Position numbers and translations under genes: made by a program. A stretch of 42,108 nt of DNA from Nitrospira sp. SB0677_bin_15 (GTDB taxonomy: Bacteria > Nitrospirota > Nitrospiria > Nitrospirales > UBA8639), in NCBI GenBank assembly GCA_009842645.1, contig VYFB01000084.1, positions 1 through 42,108 on the forward strand. The letters are read 5' to 3'. Of this stretch, positions 2,465-11,169 are shown piece by piece. The notes beneath the pieces were generated by a model. The model searched no databases, was not told the DNA's origin, and was given only the letters and a program-made list of their open reading frames with translations. Position 1 is the first letter of the stretch. The number at the start of each line of letters is the position of its first letter.

Positions 2465-4495
2465 TCAGAACTCGATTCGCAGGCTTGTCTGGGCTCCGTA
2501 GCTGAAGGCGTCGCTGGTGTCATCGCCAAGGGGCGAACCGGCCCTGCCCTGCAGGATGATCGAAACCCCATCCATGATCTTTTTTGCGGCGCCCAACCTG
2601 GCATGTCCCCAGGTATCGCTGAACCCTGAACGAAACTCGAACCCATAAGCATTGATCGAGCTGTCGTCCTGGAAATCATGCGCAACGCTCAGGTCAACGT
2701 AGAGTCTGAGGTCCTGCTTCGGAAGTACCATTGCAAATCCCAAACCTGCCGATACCTCAAGACTGTCGCTGTCTCCCTTGGCGACTGTCACGCCGTCACC
2801 GTCGGTGAAGTCGTCGAAGTCCACCCCTGTATAGACCACTTGCACTCGAGGCGTGACCCTGAAGTCGCCGGATTCGAATGCCAAGCTGGTATTGAACTCC
2901 CGGCCAATCTCGAATGAGACTCCCCATGAACGAGCGTCGATAGATTCCGAAATTCTCCGCGAGGTGAAATCAACGTCGACGTTCCAGAAGCTGAAACGGC
3001 TCTGCGCCTCCCAGTAGAAGCCGTTCGGAGCAAACCGGACCAAGGTCAACGCACCACCGTACCCGACGGCTTCGAGGTCCGACGCTGCATAGGAACGGCC
3101 TTTCCGGGCCTGCGCCGTCGTATGCATCGCATGGATCGAGATTCCTCCGACCACTGGGCCGGCCGCTGGTATCGGGAAGTCATAGCCGATCTCGACCTGG
3201 CCGCGATTCTGTCGCCACTTGCCACCGCCGAAGGAGTCGGTGGCCACGTCAACGTTCTCGATCCGGCGGTGGCCGCCCTTGGCCCGTGCCCAGATGCCCA
3301 CGGCGTCGGCACTCGGTTGCGTTCGGACCGCGCCGTATTCACCAAAGCGACGTCCCAGACGCTCCAGTGTTGCGGGAAATTCCTCGCGCATCAGTTCTGA
3401 CAACATCGAATACGCGTAGATCTGGCCGAATACTTCGGTGGCATTCCACAGCCTGGCACGCTGCATAAACGCGAGGGGATCGGCATGCCATTCCGCGTAG
3501 CCGATACGGCGCTGATCCGTCAGCCAGTTCAGTTTGTCGTCTACGCAGGCAGCCAACGCCTCGTCGTCCTTGTCAAAGGCAAAACCACCAAGTTCGACCT
3601 CGGGGTCGAGCGCCGTCACCACAAACGCACCATTGGAATCCGCACTGGCCTCGCGGTTCCCGATCTCACCTCTTGCCAAAGCATCGACGCCCCCGCTGCG
3701 GAGCGCCTTGAGTTGATCGCCGTCGAATTCGAAATATATGACCTCGGCCACCGTGCCTTGAGGACCCTGAAGGCGAGATCGACCATCGAGGTTGGGCGTG
3801 GCACCGGCAGCGGTGATACGGTAGTCGGAACTGCCGTCGGCAGTGACCTGAGTGCCATCCGACTTGTACGCGATCGTTCCCTGAGCCAAGTCTCCATCGG
3901 CGTTGACCATGCCCGTCAGCTCCAGCATCCGGTGTTCGCCAGTGGTCCCGCCAACCACGCCGACGCGCGCGCCAGTGAGATCGTCATGGCTTGCGAGGCG
4001 CTCGGCATCCTCTGCGCGCACCAGTAAGGATTGGCGAAACGTGACGTGTCCTGAGGTAAAGACAACCACGGTTTCGTTGGCGTCATTGCGGGTACGCGAA
4101 TCAAGAATCGTGATGCCGCCTCCCACCATGTCAAAGTCCGGACTCGCTGGTGCCAGCCAGATGCCGGGCCAGACGCCGATACCTCTGCGCTGGAAGGACA
4201 ATCCCGTATCCTCCATGGCTTCAAGGGCCGTCAGCAGGTCTGCTTCGTACCCCCGGTGGCGATCAAATCCGGCTGTTCCCGGGGTGGGATTCTCACTGTA
4301 GCTGACGGGCTTGAAATCCGAGAAGAACCCAAACTTGAGAACACGCTTATCCGTACAGGCCTGCCGCAGCCAGTCAACCTCCGACGCCACGGCATTCGCA
4401 GAACATGCCAACAGACTGACGATAGTGCCGAGCACAAGGAACAAAAGCTCCCGGTGAAGAGCGTTGCGTGGATTGGGCTTGATTGTTAAAGACAC
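2465..4495 (-). CDS. Solute-binding (family 3) domain fused to an autotransporter-like beta-barrel
   Basis: This 676-residue protein combines two modules rarely seen together. After an export signal (about 1-37, with a possible lipobox L-L-A-C31), residues about 50-345 read as a family-3 extracellular solute-binding domain. Visible features are LKFGFFSDFKPVSY, the GYEADLL segment, FDMVGGGIT followed by R134, and the GARVGVVGGTTGEHRM hinge-type segment. Residues about 400-676 look like an autotransporter barrel: IWARAKGG, GGKWRQNRGQVEIGYDF, alternating amphipathic strands, and a terminal aromatic residue (SLRIEF). It starts with GTG 9 bases after the egtB stop, so the two are probably co-translated. 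The family-3 domain suggests an amino acid or amine ligand. Surface display of the ligand-binding part is inference; the domain could also stay in the periplasm. Confidence 0.72.
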   Translation of the reverse strand: MSLTIKPNPRNALHRELLFLVLGTIVSLLACSANAVASEVDWLRQACTDKRVLKFGFFSDFKPVSYSENPTPGTAGFDRHRGYEADLLTALEAMEDTGLSFQRRGIGVWPGIWLAPASPDFDMVGGGITILDSRTRNDANETVVVFTSGHVTFRQSLLVRAEDAERLASHDDLTGARVGVVGGTTGEHRMLELTGMVNADGDLAQGTIAYKSDGTQVTADGSSDYRITAAGATPNLDGRSRLQGPQGTVAEVIYFEFDGDQLKALRSGGVDALARGEIGNREASADSNGAFVVTALDPEVELGGFAFDKDDEALAACVDDKLNWLTDQRRIGYAEWHADPLAFMQRARLWNATEVFGQIYAYSMLSELMREEFPATLERLGRRFGEYGAVRTQPSADAVGIWARAKGGHRRIENVDVATDSFGGGKWRQNRGQVEIGYDFPIPAAGPVVGGISIHAMHTTAQARKGRSYAASDLEAVGYGGALTLVRFAPNGFYWEAQSRFSFWNVDVDFTSRRISESIDARSWGVSFEIGREFNTSLAFESGDFRVTPRVQVVYTGVDFDDFTDGDGVTVAKGDSDSLEVSAGLGFAMVLPKQDLRLYVDLSVAHDFQDDSSINAYGFEFRSGFSDTWGHARLGAAKKIMDGVSIILQGRAGSPLGDDTSDAFSYGAQTSLRIEF

Positions 4496-4504
4496 AGCAG
4501 TCCG

Positions 4505-5713
4505 TCAGGAGTTTTGGACGCACCGGAAGCCGGCGTGGGCGTAGGGATAGTCCTGACGGAACCAGTTCCGGAATGAGCGACGCAACAGACAGGAGGCCGT
4601 GGTGGGAGCACCGCCTTTGACGATGAAATGATCATCATCGAAGAAGCGGGCGGAGTATCCGGGATAGGTGGGATAGGGCTCGAAGCCTTCGAATGGACGA
4701 AACCGCGTCGCGGTCCATTCCCAGCCGTTGCCGACCAACTGCGAAACCCCGAATGCGCTGTCACCGTGTGGATTGGCCGTGACCGGAACCGGGTCCCAAA
4801 ATCGAAAGTCAAAATTTCCATGCACGCCGTTGGCGATCCGTTCTGCCCAGGGATAGGCGCGTTCTTCGCCGCTTGGCGTCCCGTACGCCGCCCGATGAAA
4901 TTGCGCCTCGGTCGGTAGCGAGAGCCCGGCCCATTGCGCATAGGCCCGTGCGTGGCTCAGGGAGACGTAGACGGGCCAGTGCGGGGGAAGCGGAATTTCC
5001 TGAAACAGCGTCAACAGGAACCAGCGGTCTCCGCGTTTGACCCAAAAAAGGGGGACGGGACCGCCCTGTTCCACGAACTTTTCATATTGTTGATTGGTGA
5101 CCTTGTATTTGCTGATCGCAAAGGCAGGGACGTCTTCTCGACGTTCACCGAATTCATTATCCCAGCCGAACCCGTCACAACGACCGAGCGTCGCTACGCC
5201 CTGGGGAACGTCGATCATGGCGTGATTCGGTGGCGGACTTTCAGGCGGTGGGGACAAAGACGGCGATTTTTTTCTCTCACAAGCAACGTGGTGCAGCAGG
5301 TAGGCCGTGGTTTCGGCGTGCATCCATCGATGCTCGATCGCCATACGCAGGACGGTTTCCGGAGCGTCTTCCAACGCCGCATCAACCGACTCCCTGGCTT
5401 CGACGTTGTAGCGCCGGATTTCTTCGAGCGAAGGCCAGTCCGAGGGCATATCTTGCTGTTGCGAGCCTACCTCGGGATCGATGCCTGCCTCGAACAAAGA
5501 ATCAAACGTTTCATGAAAGGAAGGCTTGCCCAACGTCCAGCGACAAATCTGGTTCCAATCAAACGCCTCCACGTGGCCGACGTAAAACACGACGCGATGA
5601 CGTTCCGGGATGGGACGTTCATAGAGCGTCTCCGGTTGAAACAGGGAAAAAATGTGATCGGTGCAAGCCCTCGCCGCGGATAATTCCTTCCGTATTTCGA
5701 CTAAACGCGGCAT
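4505..5713 (-). CDS. egtB: EgtB, iron-dependent sulfoxide synthase of ergothioneine biosynthesis
   Basis: This 402-residue protein has a DinB-like four-helix N-terminal domain followed by a formylglycine-generating-enzyme (FGE/sulfatase-modifying) domain, the EgtB architecture. The three-histidine iron site is visible as H47 (GHVEAFDWN) and the HX3HXE motif H128-R-W-M-H132-A-E134. The FGE part shows LPTEAQFHRAAYG, GNGWEWTATRF and a terminal RRSFRNWF...HAGFRC. EgtB joins a thiol to hercynine with oxygen to form a sulfoxide. No egtA or egtC is present in the window, so the thiol donor may be cysteine rather than gamma-glutamylcysteine; this is inference. It is transcribed divergently from the ABC transporter and egtD/egtE, and leads into the solute-binding/autotransporter gene. 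Confidence 0.9.
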   Translation of the reverse strand: MPRLVEIRKELSAARACTDHIFSLFQPETLYERPIPERHRVVFYVGHVEAFDWNQICRWTLGKPSFHETFDSLFEAGIDPEVGSQQQDMPSDWPSLEEIRRYNVEARESVDAALEDAPETVLRMAIEHRWMHAETTAYLLHHVACERKKSPSLSPPPESPPPNHAMIDVPQGVATLGRCDGFGWDNEFGERREDVPAFAISKYKVTNQQYEKFVEQGGPVPLFWVKRGDRWFLLTLFQEIPLPPHWPVYVSLSHARAYAQWAGLSLPTEAQFHRAAYGTPSGEERAYPWAERIANGVHGNFDFRFWDPVPVTANPHGDSAFGVSQLVGNGWEWTATRFRPFEGFEPYPTYPGYSARFFDDDHFIVKGGAPTTASCLLRRSFRNWFRQDYPYAHAGFRCVQNS

Positions 5714-5859
5714 AATTCCTGGGCGATTCTACACCGACTTCGTTGCGGGGAAGCCGATAGCCTCTCTCCTACGGGCTTGTGTAATATCTACATAGTCGAA
5801 TCTTGTCAAGAAGAAATGCTGGAGGGGAGAGGGAGTTGTATTCGGGAGGTTCTATAACG
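5714..5859. promoter_or_regulatory. Shared divergent promoter region of the ergothioneine locus
   Basis: The 146-bp gap separates egtB (leftward) from the ABC transporter operon (rightward), so both promoters must lie here. It holds AT-rich stretches (TAATATCTACATAG at about 5781-5794). On the minus strand a TAGAAT box lies close to the egtB start. A strong ribosome binding site, GGGAGGT, ends about 10 bases before the ATG at 5860. No palindromic operator was recognised. Confidence 0.45.
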
Positions 5860-6612
5860 ATGAAGCTACCAGTCATGAGTGTCCGCGGCGTCAGCAAGGA
5901 ATTCGGCCCCGGTGTTCGAGTCCTCGACCACGTCGACTTCGAAGTGGTTAAAGGTGAAACCCTGGTCCTGATCGGGGAAAGCGGGTCCGGCAAAACAACC
6001 TTGCTCAGGATGTTTAACGGGTTGACTCATCCCAGTTCGGGTGACGTTCGCATCCATGACAAACCTGTACGAATCCAGGATCCCATCAATCTTCGTCGCC
6101 GCGTCGGGTACGTGCAGCAGGACGCCGGATTGTTGCCGCATTGGACCGTTGAAGAGAACGTCGGCCTCGTACCGCTGTTGCTTGGATGGGAGTCCGAACA
6201 GAGAACGAGCCGGGTGCATGCGCTCCTGAACCTCGTTCATCTTGACCCGCAACAATTTCGAGCACGGTATCCCATTGAACTATCCGGCGGGCAACGACAA
6301 CGCGTGGCTTTTGCGCGAGCCCTCGCCGCCGATCCCGGGATCGTCCTGCTCGACGAACCATTCGGCGCGCTCGACGCAATTACCCGCCACGAACTCCAAC
6401 GCCAATTCCTGAGTCTAAAACAGCGTCTCAACAAAACCATGGTCATGGTCACCCACGACGTCGATGAGGCACTGCAACTCGGCGACCGCATCGCGGTGTT
6501 GAAAGAAGGACGCCTCCTCCAGATCGGAACTCCGGTCGACCTGCTCAACGCTCCGGTCCACGACTACGTGGTGCAATTGCTCCGCCATCGATCCCATGGG
6601 GTTTTCTCATGA
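5860..6612 (+). CDS. ABC transporter ATPase, glycine betaine/ergothioneine type (EgtV/OpuCA-like)
   Basis: This 250-residue ATPase has a complete ABC cassette: Walker A GESGSGKTT (39-47), signature LSGGQ (141-145), Walker B IVLLDEP (161-167) and the H-loop histidine in VTHD (about 199). It resembles the OpuA/OpuCA/ProV class that drives betaine importers; EgtV of the ergothioneine importer EgtUV belongs to that class. The ATG at 5860 is chosen over an upstream in-frame TTG because a strong GGGAGGT ribosome binding site precedes it. It lacks the C-terminal CBS domains found in many osmoregulated OpuA ATPases. Its stop overlaps the permease start by four bases. Placement between egtB and egtD suggests that ergothioneine or a precursor betaine such as hercynine is the substrate. 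Confidence 0.85.
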   Translation: MKLPVMSVRGVSKEFGPGVRVLDHVDFEVVKGETLVLIGESGSGKTTLLRMFNGLTHPSSGDVRIHDKPVRIQDPINLRRRVGYVQQDAGLLPHWTVEENVGLVPLLLGWESEQRTSRVHALLNLVHLDPQQFRARYPIELSGGQRQRVAFARALAADPGIVLLDEPFGALDAITRHELQRQFLSLKQRLNKTMVMVTHDVDEALQLGDRIAVLKEGRLLQIGTPVDLLNAPVHDYVVQLLRHRSHGVFS

Positions 6613-8168
6613 CCAAGTCTCTTCATTCGGTGTATTTGAGGACGCTGATGATCCTCATGCTGTTGCTTCCTTTGCCGGCCTTTTCGCAGGAAGACCGCAT
6701 CGTCGTCGGCTCAAAGAATTTCATGGAGAACAAACTTCTGGCTGAGATCTTCGCTCAACTCATCGAAGCCCGCACGAACCTGTCCGTGGAACGGCGATTG
6801 GGCCTGGCGGGCACGCAGGTCTGCTTTGAAGCACTTCGGACCGGCGCCATCGACCTTTACCCCGAATACACGGGCACCGGGCTCGTCAGCATTCTCAAGC
6901 AACCGCCGACCGGAGACCCACGAACGGCGCTCAACGTCGTTCGTGCAGAATTTTTACAACGTTGGGATTTGTGGTGGCTGAATCCATTAGGATTTGAGAA
7001 CGCCTATGCCCTTGCGGTTCCTCGTTCTCGAACGGCCGGCATTCCCCTGCGAACCATTTCGGACCTCGTCAAGATCGCGCCTTCCTTGACGGGAGGATTC
7101 GGGTATGAATTCATCAATCGGCCCGATGGATTACCAGGACTGGAAATACGATACGGCCTCGCCTTTCAACGCGTGCAGGCCATGCAACAATCCCTGAAAT
7201 ACCAGGCTGCCGCTGCAGGCGAGATCGACGTGCTCGACGTGTATACCACTGACGGGCGGCTTGCCGTGTATGACTTCGTGGTGCTCGAAGACGATCTCCA
7301 CTTTTTCCCACCCTATGAAGCGTCGGGATTGATTCGAGGTTCCACGCTTGCGGAACACCCCGAGTTGGGAGCAGTCCTGGGATTGCTGACTCATGCGTTC
7401 GACGACAAAACCATGCGGCACTTGAATTATCGTTTGCAGGAAGGCGGGGAACCGCCGGACGTGGTGGCACGTGATGCCTTGTCGGCCCTGCACCTTTTTA
7501 CAAGCGATGCTGCCGGCACCCGACCGGTTTCGCATCAGGAAGGACTCTTTGCGTATATGTGGTCGAAGCGAACGGATCTTGGGGGGCGAATAATCGAACA
7601 TCTGACCCTGGCCGGGCTGGCTTTGGGCTTGGGGATTCTGTTGGCTGTTCCCTTGGGCTTGCTACTCGAACGTCAACAAGCCATTGCCGAACCCGTCATC
7701 AGAGGCATCGGCCTCACGCAAACGATCCCCTCCATCGCGTTGCTCGCCTTCATGATCCCAGTGTTCGGAATCGGCATGCTGCCGGCCGTGATCGCCTTAT
7801 GGATGTATTCCCTGTTTCCCATCGTGAGGAACACCTATTCGGGCCTGCGCGATGCCGCACCCCAAGCCGTGGAAGCGGCTCGCGCGCTCGGTATGACGGA
7901 ATGGCAAATCCTCCATTGGGTACGACTACCGTTAGCCGCGCCCGTCATCATGGCCGGCATACGCACCGCGGGGGTCATCACCGTAGGCACGACCACGCTG
8001 GCCGCGTTCATCGGCGCGGGTGGCTTGGGCGTGCCGATTGTCGCGGGCCTGCAAATGGCCAACACGACCGTGATCCTTTCAGGGGCGTTACCCGCAGCCG
8101 CCCTGGCATTGGTAATCGACGGGGTTCTCGGCCAGGTGGAAACGTGGCTCAGGCCGCGTGGCGTCTGA
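6609..8168 (+). CDS. Solute-binding protein/permease fusion of a betaine- or ergothioneine-type ABC importer
   Basis: This 519-residue protein starts with a signal sequence ending near PAFSQ (about residue 26). An OpuAC-like substrate-binding domain follows (about 30-310), with IVVGSKNFMENKLLAEI, ALRTGAIDLYPEYTGTG and DVLDVYTTDGRL. The C-terminal part (about 325-510) is a binding-protein-dependent permease domain with the EAARALGMTEWQILHWVRLPLA coupling loop and GAGGLGVPI. Well-known EgtU proteins carry the same two modules, but with the permease first and the binding domain last; here the order is reversed. It would act in the inner membrane with its binding domain in the periplasm, driven by the ATPase encoded immediately upstream (ATGA overlap). 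The substrate, ergothioneine, hercynine or another betaine, is inferred from the gene neighbourhood only. Confidence 0.83.
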   Translation: MTKSLHSVYLRTLMILMLLLPLPAFSQEDRIVVGSKNFMENKLLAEIFAQLIEARTNLSVERRLGLAGTQVCFEALRTGAIDLYPEYTGTGLVSILKQPPTGDPRTALNVVRAEFLQRWDLWWLNPLGFENAYALAVPRSRTAGIPLRTISDLVKIAPSLTGGFGYEFINRPDGLPGLEIRYGLAFQRVQAMQQSLKYQAAAAGEIDVLDVYTTDGRLAVYDFVVLEDDLHFFPPYEASGLIRGSTLAEHPELGAVLGLLTHAFDDKTMRHLNYRLQEGGEPPDVVARDALSALHLFTSDAAGTRPVSHQEGLFAYMWSKRTDLGGRIIEHLTLAGLALGLGILLAVPLGLLLERQQAIAEPVIRGIGLTQTIPSIALLAFMIPVFGIGMLPAVIALWMYSLFPIVRNTYSGLRDAAPQAVEAARALGMTEWQILHWVRLPLAAPVIMAGIRTAGVITVGTTTLAAFIGAGGLGVPIVAGLQMANTTVILSGALPAAALALVIDGVLGQVETWLRPRGV

Positions 8169-10362: not shown

Positions 10363-11169
10363 TCAGGATTCACGTTGGCGATCCAAACGTTCCTCCAAAC
10401 GGCGCAAGGCTTTCTGTGTTGAACGAAGATCGCGCAAAATTTCTTCCCGCGAGACGGGTTGTTCCAGTTCCCGCAGGCGCTCGGCTTTGGCCTCTTCGAG
10501 ATTGTTGAGGACCACCGCGATAAAAAGATTGATCACCACGAACGTACCGACCACCACGAAACTGACGAAATAGATCCACGCCATCGGATGCAGTTCCATG
10601 GCAATATACATGATGTCCGTCCAATCCTCCAACGTCACGACCCGGAACAACGACAACAGGGAAATACCCAGGTTTCGCCAATGGACGGGGTCATGTTCAT
10701 GAAACAATTGGTGGCCCGTAATCGCGTAGATATAAAAGATGATGCTCATCAGGAGCATGACGTGTCCCATGCTCGGGATCGAGCGCACGAGCGTCGAGAC
10801 AATCAAGCGCAGTTCCTGAATCGTGGAAATCAACCGCAGAACCCGCAATAACCTGGCGAGCCGGGCAATCATGGCATACTCGCCGGTCGCGGGCACCAGC
10901 GAGAACACGATCACCGAAAAATCGAAGACGTTCCAGCCATCTCGAAAGTACCGGTCGACCTGCGGGGCCACGGCCACCATTTTCAACAGAGCTTCGAGGA
11001 TGAACACCCCCAACACGAATTGGTTTCCCAAGTGCATCCATTCTCCGTATCGGCGAACCAAATCCTGAGACGTCTCCATGCCCAACAACGCTCCATTCCC
11101 GATAATGAGCGCGATAATCACGTATTCAAACGCGGGGGCATTGACTACTCGTTGCGCGAATTGTTTCAT
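10363..11169 (-). CDS. Voltage-gated ion channel of the bacterial NaChBac-like family
   Basis: This 268-residue protein has the six-helix plan of single-domain voltage-gated channels. The S4 voltage sensor carries regularly spaced arginines (R103, R106, R109, R112), and a pore loop follows between S5 and S6. The selectivity filter reads T-L-E-D-W-T-D (179-185), richer in acidic residues than the TLESWAS filter of NaChBac, which may favour calcium. The C-terminus (about 225-268) is charged and heptad-like, fitting the coiled-coil tetramerisation domain of this family. It converges with egtE, with only 15 bp between the genes. No functional link to the neighbours is evident. Confidence 0.88.
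   Translation of the reverse strand: MKQFAQRVVNAPAFEYVIIALIIGNGALLGMETSQDLVRRYGEWMHLGNQFVLGVFILEALLKMVAVAPQVDRYFRDGWNVFDFSVIVFSLVPATGEYAMIARLARLLRVLRLISTIQELRLIVSTLVRSIPSMGHVMLLMSIIFYIYAITGHQLFHEHDPVHWRNLGISLLSLFRVVTLEDWTDIMYIAMELHPMAWIYFVSFVVVGTFVVINLFIAVVLNNLEEAKAERLRELEQPVSREEILRDLRSTQKALRRLEERLDRQRES

Follow-up and report, generated by a model that had tools for sequence, protein, structure and literature searches.

On the minus strand of the window (the whole stretch of DNA that was analysed, 42,108 nucleotides), one gene joins a family-3 solute-binding protein (SBP) domain to a C-terminal autotransporter barrel. The best overall explanation for this combination, to which a probability of about 0.5 is assigned, is that the SBP domain is a surface-displayed passenger on a type Va-like autotransporter, used for the capture or the sensing and recognition of a small carboxylate of the sponge holobiont. 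The joining of the two domains had been claimed in a first-pass annotation, and it is borne out by a single intact open reading frame, by matches to both domain profiles and by agreeing fold models.

Architecture and predicted structure of the fusion

The whole gene (2465..4495), delimited by its open reading frame, by Pfam and NCBIfam matches and by its orthologues, encodes 676 amino acids from a GTG start to a C-terminus that reads SLRIEF; all of its parts lie on the minus strand. A putative signal peptide read from the alignment occupies residues 1-37 (4385..4495), with cleavage probably between AVA and SE, and inspection of the alignment by eye found both the hydrophobic core and this site to be conserved among orthologues. 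The SBP domain (residues 47-346; 3458..4357), defined by profile, alignment and model, has the two-lobed family-3 fold. It is followed by a linker (residues 347-398; 3302..3457) containing an alpha-helix, a candidate pore helix, which was placed using the model and the start of the TIGR01414 match at residue 373, and then by an autotransporter beta-barrel of about 12 strands (residues 399-676; 2468..3301), identified by Pfam, AlphaFold and Foldseek, which ends in Phe676. In the profile search the barrel scored above the cut-offs of both autotransporter models, Autotransporter PF03797 (residues 401-647 on profile positions 1-251 of 255, E 1.1e-27, 97.9 bits against a cut-off of 26) and TIGR01414 (residues 373-652, E 8e-30, 104 bits against a cut-off of 16), while SBP_bac_3 PF00497 matched residues 54-328 below its cut-off (E 1.3e-4, 22.2 bits against 26.4).

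Structure prediction placed a barrel where the first-pass annotation had expected one (residues 400-676): in the AlphaFold model of the full chain, strands at 399-674 form a barrel of roughly 12 strands, preceded by a predicted helix at 341-368 and a linker of low confidence at 379-396. For the full model Foldseek ranks the transport unit of AIDA-I first (TM 0.83 by target), then EstA, EspP, AaaA and NalP, and the N-terminal half of the model matches family-3 SBPs. Lobe 1 of the SBP domain is weak in this model (pLDDT about 35-55), which leaves the arrangement of the domains with respect to each other tentative, and the SBP domain was therefore modelled separately, with 42 natural homologue sequences. 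The separate model (pLDDT 93.4) has the two-lobed PBP2 fold, and its nearest solved folds are AncCDT-1, ArtJ, GlnBP and ArgBP.

The passenger thus has an SBP fold and is not beta-helical. A beta-helical passenger is usual in type Va autotransporters but is not obligatory, since EstA does without one. With EstA (Pseudomonas aeruginosa, PDB 3kvn) and the AIDA-I transport unit (4mee) the fusion shares an N-terminal globular domain, a predicted helix, a 12-strand barrel and a C-terminal Phe; it differs from them in carrying a two-lobed solute-binding fold in place of an esterase or a beta-helix.

The genus to which the window belongs is represented by 14 examined genomes of 1.9-3.0 Mb in the Nitrospirota, whose named relatives are Nitrospirales MAGs, several of them labelled from sponge studies. 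We infer that it corresponds to GTDB genus bin75, Candidatus Nitrosymbion, a sponge-associated nitrite oxidiser (PMC11812461). The whole fusion is encoded in five of the 14 genomes, the window genome included, at 85-91% identity. Among these five orthologues mean dN/dS comes to 0.17 for the SBP part, 0.14 for the linker and 0.23 for the barrel; because it is low in both the SBP and barrel parts, both halves are maintained, and the fusion is a real gene that evolves under purifying selection in these five genomes. Cys31 of the signal region is Y or F in two orthologues, and a lipoprotein reading of the Nitrosymbion fusion was rejected for this reason. A sixth carrier, G179, has the SBP domain (51% identity) on a different barrel (barrel B, as distinct from the barrel A of the window), in a protein of 979 amino acids that lies far from egtB. 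Contig C1 of G179, a 2.9 Mb sponge-type Nitrospirales genome, holds 14 autotransporter-barrel matches, some of them within open frames of more than 9000 amino acids.

The SBP subfamily, its binding site and its spread

A search of 84,980 species genomes for the SBP domain returned 26 loci, distributed over Nitrospirales, Poribacteria, Chloroflexota including Caldilineaceae, two cyanobacteria (one named Synechococcus), Gammaproteobacteria and Rhodospirillaceae. Matches were found in 19 of 301 Chloroflexota, 1 of 398 Pseudomonadota and 6 of 300 members of the Synechococcus family, one of these last being a fragment. Identity within the subfamily is at least 51%, full-length matches score near 1e-120 or better, and the weaker matches are fragments. 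As judged from sequence matches, the SBP domain is a sharply bounded subfamily nested in a much larger, fold-wide SBP family.

In amino-acid SBPs such as LAO and HisJ, an Arg and a Thr or Ser hold the alpha-carboxylate of the ligand and an Asp holds the alpha-ammonium. Within the subfamily alignment R134 (42 of 42 rows), T129 and T185 are invariant, Gly276 stands in 42 of 42 rows at the position of the ammonium-site Asp, and Phe or Tyr58 occupies the position of LAO Asp11. The aligned site thus appears to keep the carboxylate clamp without the ammonium-binding Asp, and since the clamp Arg and Thr are kept and the Asp is replaced, the natural guess for the ligand, put at slightly less than even odds, is a carboxylate lacking a free alpha-ammonium. 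Over five or more phyla, 36 columns of the domain are strictly invariant, and conservation is concentrated at the SBP-ligand-site positions R134, T129, T184/T185 and W109. Lobe 2 carries an insertion of about 50 residues (about 196-250; 3746..3910), located by alignment to AncCDT-1, in which about 69 residues stand opposite 17; it is present in all alignment rows, and classical family-3 SBPs lack it. Thirty-six rows have both Cys47 and Cys317 and two (L040 and L044) have neither, a pattern that suggests a disulfide between them, and the pair is kept in the barrel-fused copies. The domain therefore resembles ArtJ, ArgBP, GlnBP and AncCDT-1 in its family-3 fold and in the Arg and Thr of the carboxylate clamp, but differs from them in scoring below the Pfam cut-off, in the lobe 2 insertion, in the replacement of the ammonium-site Asp by Gly, in the conserved cysteine pair with its predicted disulfide, and in having no cognate permease in the genus.

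Most copies of the SBP domain stand alone, ending 1-9 amino acids past the domain; by eye, these look like lipoproteins in Poribacteria and Chloroflexota and like signal-peptide proteins in cyanobacteria and Rhodospirillaceae. Fusions to barrel A occur in Nitrosymbion and on the gammaproteobacterial-type contigs L028 and L108, and the fusion to barrel B occurs in G179. At L108:876-3827 an IS1595-type transposase gene adjoins the barrel-A copy, whose N-terminal part has been replaced, and the gene is probably disrupted. The copy on L071 has a tail of 101 amino acids behind the domain. At L044:9338-12691, in a Pseudomonadales genome without an amino-acid permease, the domain is part of a protein of 1117 amino acids that also has Ig-like domains and, at its C-terminus, an S41 peptidase, and at L107:3577-5550 it lies behind Cache-type ligand-binding domains. 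The L107 contig was assigned to the bin of a Chloroflexota MAG (G1000) in which fusion contigs are found as well, and contamination is for that reason likely. In the tree the barrel-A copies form one clade (100/99) that unites Nitrospirota with L028, and the G179 barrel-B copy falls outside it, on a long branch of unsure place. A single barrel-A clade across Nitrospirota and gammaproteobacterial-type contigs implies that the finished fusion was transferred between these lineages.

Most carriers are MAGs labelled in ways that point to a sponge source, and many contig labels (RHO, COS, CAR, IRC) match sponge species of PMC8163846; one label (Plut) suggests coral. On this distribution the subfamily appears to be horizontally spread among sponge-associated bacteria. 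Carriage by phages or plasmids was considered and rejected: no SBP-domain match was found in phages, plasmids or viral contigs, and the plasmid matches of the full 676-residue protein cover the barrel only, or nearly so. A PADLOC scan found no defence families.

The egtB neighbourhood

The first-pass annotation had coupled the fusion to egtB. The gap of 9 bp that it gave is correct, the egtB stop lying at 4505, but the coupling is not conserved, an outcome that the annotation itself had named as refuting this part of its reading. The gene in question (4505..5713, minus strand; FGE-sulfatase and DinB_2 domains) is not judged part of the system. Its product scores best with the OvoA N-terminal model and falls below the OvoA, EgtB and SenA equivalog cut-offs of NCBIfam; it is a divergent sulfoxide synthase beside a clear EgtD, the window egtD being above its NCBIfam cut-off, and a class-V aminotransferase stands at the egtE position. 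A voltage-gated-type ion channel gene (Ion_trans; 10363-11169) remains next to the egt cluster in those members of the genus that were examined. The gene had also been said to face an EgtUV-like importer: an ABC importer (5803-8168) is indeed nearby and runs divergently from egtB, which separates it from the fusion gene. The importer gene at 6609-8168 has its OpuAC domain at the N-terminus and its permease at the C-terminus, scores below all NCBIfam equivalog cut-offs, and may take a ligand of the choline, betaine or ergothioneine type. It belongs to the same broad class as EgtU, in which the SBP is C-terminal (residues 233-506; PMC9732360), and has the reverse domain order; neither protein is the fusion gene.

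All 14 genomes of the genus have egtB, and the fusion stands beside it in five. In G173, whose EgtB is 93% identical, the symporter gene and egtB are about 20 bp apart and the gap is empty; in G081, G296 and G065 a Phd/YefM antitoxin and a PIN toxin, whole or in pieces, occupy this gap, the G081 pair being confirmed by Pfam, and the G227 gap is similar by DNA. Such toxin-antitoxin genes, whole or in pieces, were recorded at L112:5460-6460, L113:5320-6850 and L114:7800-8600, in genus members without the fusion. A search of the egtB-symporter gaps of the other genomes for remnants of the fusion returned nothing above noise. Carriers of the fusion are patchy on the EgtB tree (four changes). Outside the genus, no conserved egt or permease neighbour of the SBP gene was found in 20 other genomes, and stand-alone copies have no conserved gene neighbours beyond near relatives. 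Because the gap is elsewhere empty or filled by toxin-antitoxin genes, the carriers are patchy and the G179 copy is distant, the position behind egtB is most readily explained by insertion at a variable site; coupling to egtB was rejected, and the link to ergothioneine genes looks accidental.

Orientation and role of the binding domain

As a rule, periplasmic binding proteins work within the envelope, in the service of permeases. The polar amino-acid ABC permease TIGR01726 is present in none of the 14 genus genomes against 11 of 14 control genomes, and other SBP_bac_3 proteins are almost absent from the genus (1 of 14), which makes a feeder role for the fusion unlikely. Of the 18 genomes with stand-alone copies, 17 have the permease above cut-off, against 1 of the 8 with fused copies, a difference (Fisher 9e-5) that is uncorrected for kinship and confounded with phylogeny. 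A sensing or capture role is most likely, rather than that of an importer feeder or an ergothioneine device.

In the proposed mechanism the fusion protein would be exported by Sec and inserted with the assistance of BAM; the 12-strand barrel would anchor it in the outer membrane, and the SBP domain would come to lie outside the cell, where the helix, threaded through the barrel pore, would hold it. There it would bind a small carboxylate of the sponge holobiont, as a surface capture or sensing and recognition protein that does not feed an ABC importer. The barrel type and the helix make surface display the default reading, and the SBP domain is probably exposed on the cell surface. The main alternative, judged unlikely, is that the barrel tethers the domain to the outer membrane on the periplasmic side, where the domain would buffer or sense its ligand. 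Its best argument is the predicted Cys47-Cys317 disulfide, retained when the domain is fused to a barrel, because some systems export passengers with disulfide bonds poorly. Secretion by Hbp and certain other autotransporters is impeded when a segment is folded or stabilised by a disulfide, although certain barrels can export VHH fusions that contain disulfides (PMC5802855). The stand-alone homologues, which are periplasmic or secreted proteins or lipoproteins, are also in keeping with tethering. Against it, proteins in which a PF03797/TIGR01414 barrel follows an N-terminal domain and has a helix ahead of strand 1 are typical autotransporters, the closest folds are AIDA-I, EstA, EspP and AaaA, and the genus has no permease to receive the ligand.

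What a displayed domain would do is a separate matter. That it is an enzyme with an SBP ancestor, like cyclohexadienyl dehydratase (CDT), and displayed in the manner of the EstA esterase passenger, is improbable: its closest solved relatives are AncCDT proteins and its many invariant columns would suit a catalyst, but the essential catalytic Glu173 of CDT (PMC10520331) aligns with a Gly279 found in 42 of 42 rows, so that CDT activity itself is unlikely and was rejected as a candidate. That it captures ergothioneine, hercynine or a betaine related to them, to supply the egt cluster and its importer, is very improbable. The adjacency to egtB favours it, and a clamp without the ammonium-binding Asp in an aromatic-rich site would suit a quaternary ammonium carboxylate, but the egtB link is limited to five of 14 genomes, the G179 copy lies elsewhere, other phyla show no egt neighbour, and the importer has its own fused OpuAC domain. 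Campylobacter PEB1 is a family-3 SBP that has been discussed as an adhesin; it is soluble and works with a permease. The fusion would share with it a surface role but is covalently tied to its barrel. Binding of a host protein or glycan in the same manner would fit the sponge-associated distribution, the related fusions to Ig-like and Cache domains and the lateral transfer of attachment proteins among sponge symbionts (PMC8163846), and has equally little probability, for conservation centred on positions aligned with the SBP ligand site indicates a small molecule instead.

On the reading preferred here, the SBP domain is a horizontally spread module of sponge-associated bacteria whose anchor differs by lineage: lipid, barrel A, barrel B, Cache domains or S41 peptidase. 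It is possible, if rather doubtful, that the subfamily is a laterally shared and largely sponge-specific recognition module, in which one binding domain for one holobiont metabolite serves at least five phyla as a common sensing or capture device, displayed outside by whatever anchor is available, including lipid, two unrelated barrels and Cache and peptidase fusions. In the literature searched, no report of a natural SBP passenger on an autotransporter was found, and such a passenger, if the reading given here is true, would be a new class. A conserved domain that recurs across unrelated bacteria from sponge-labelled MAGs and is nearly absent elsewhere would single out a metabolite that matters in sponges, and that metabolite may be findable by ligand screening of a single soluble SBP domain.
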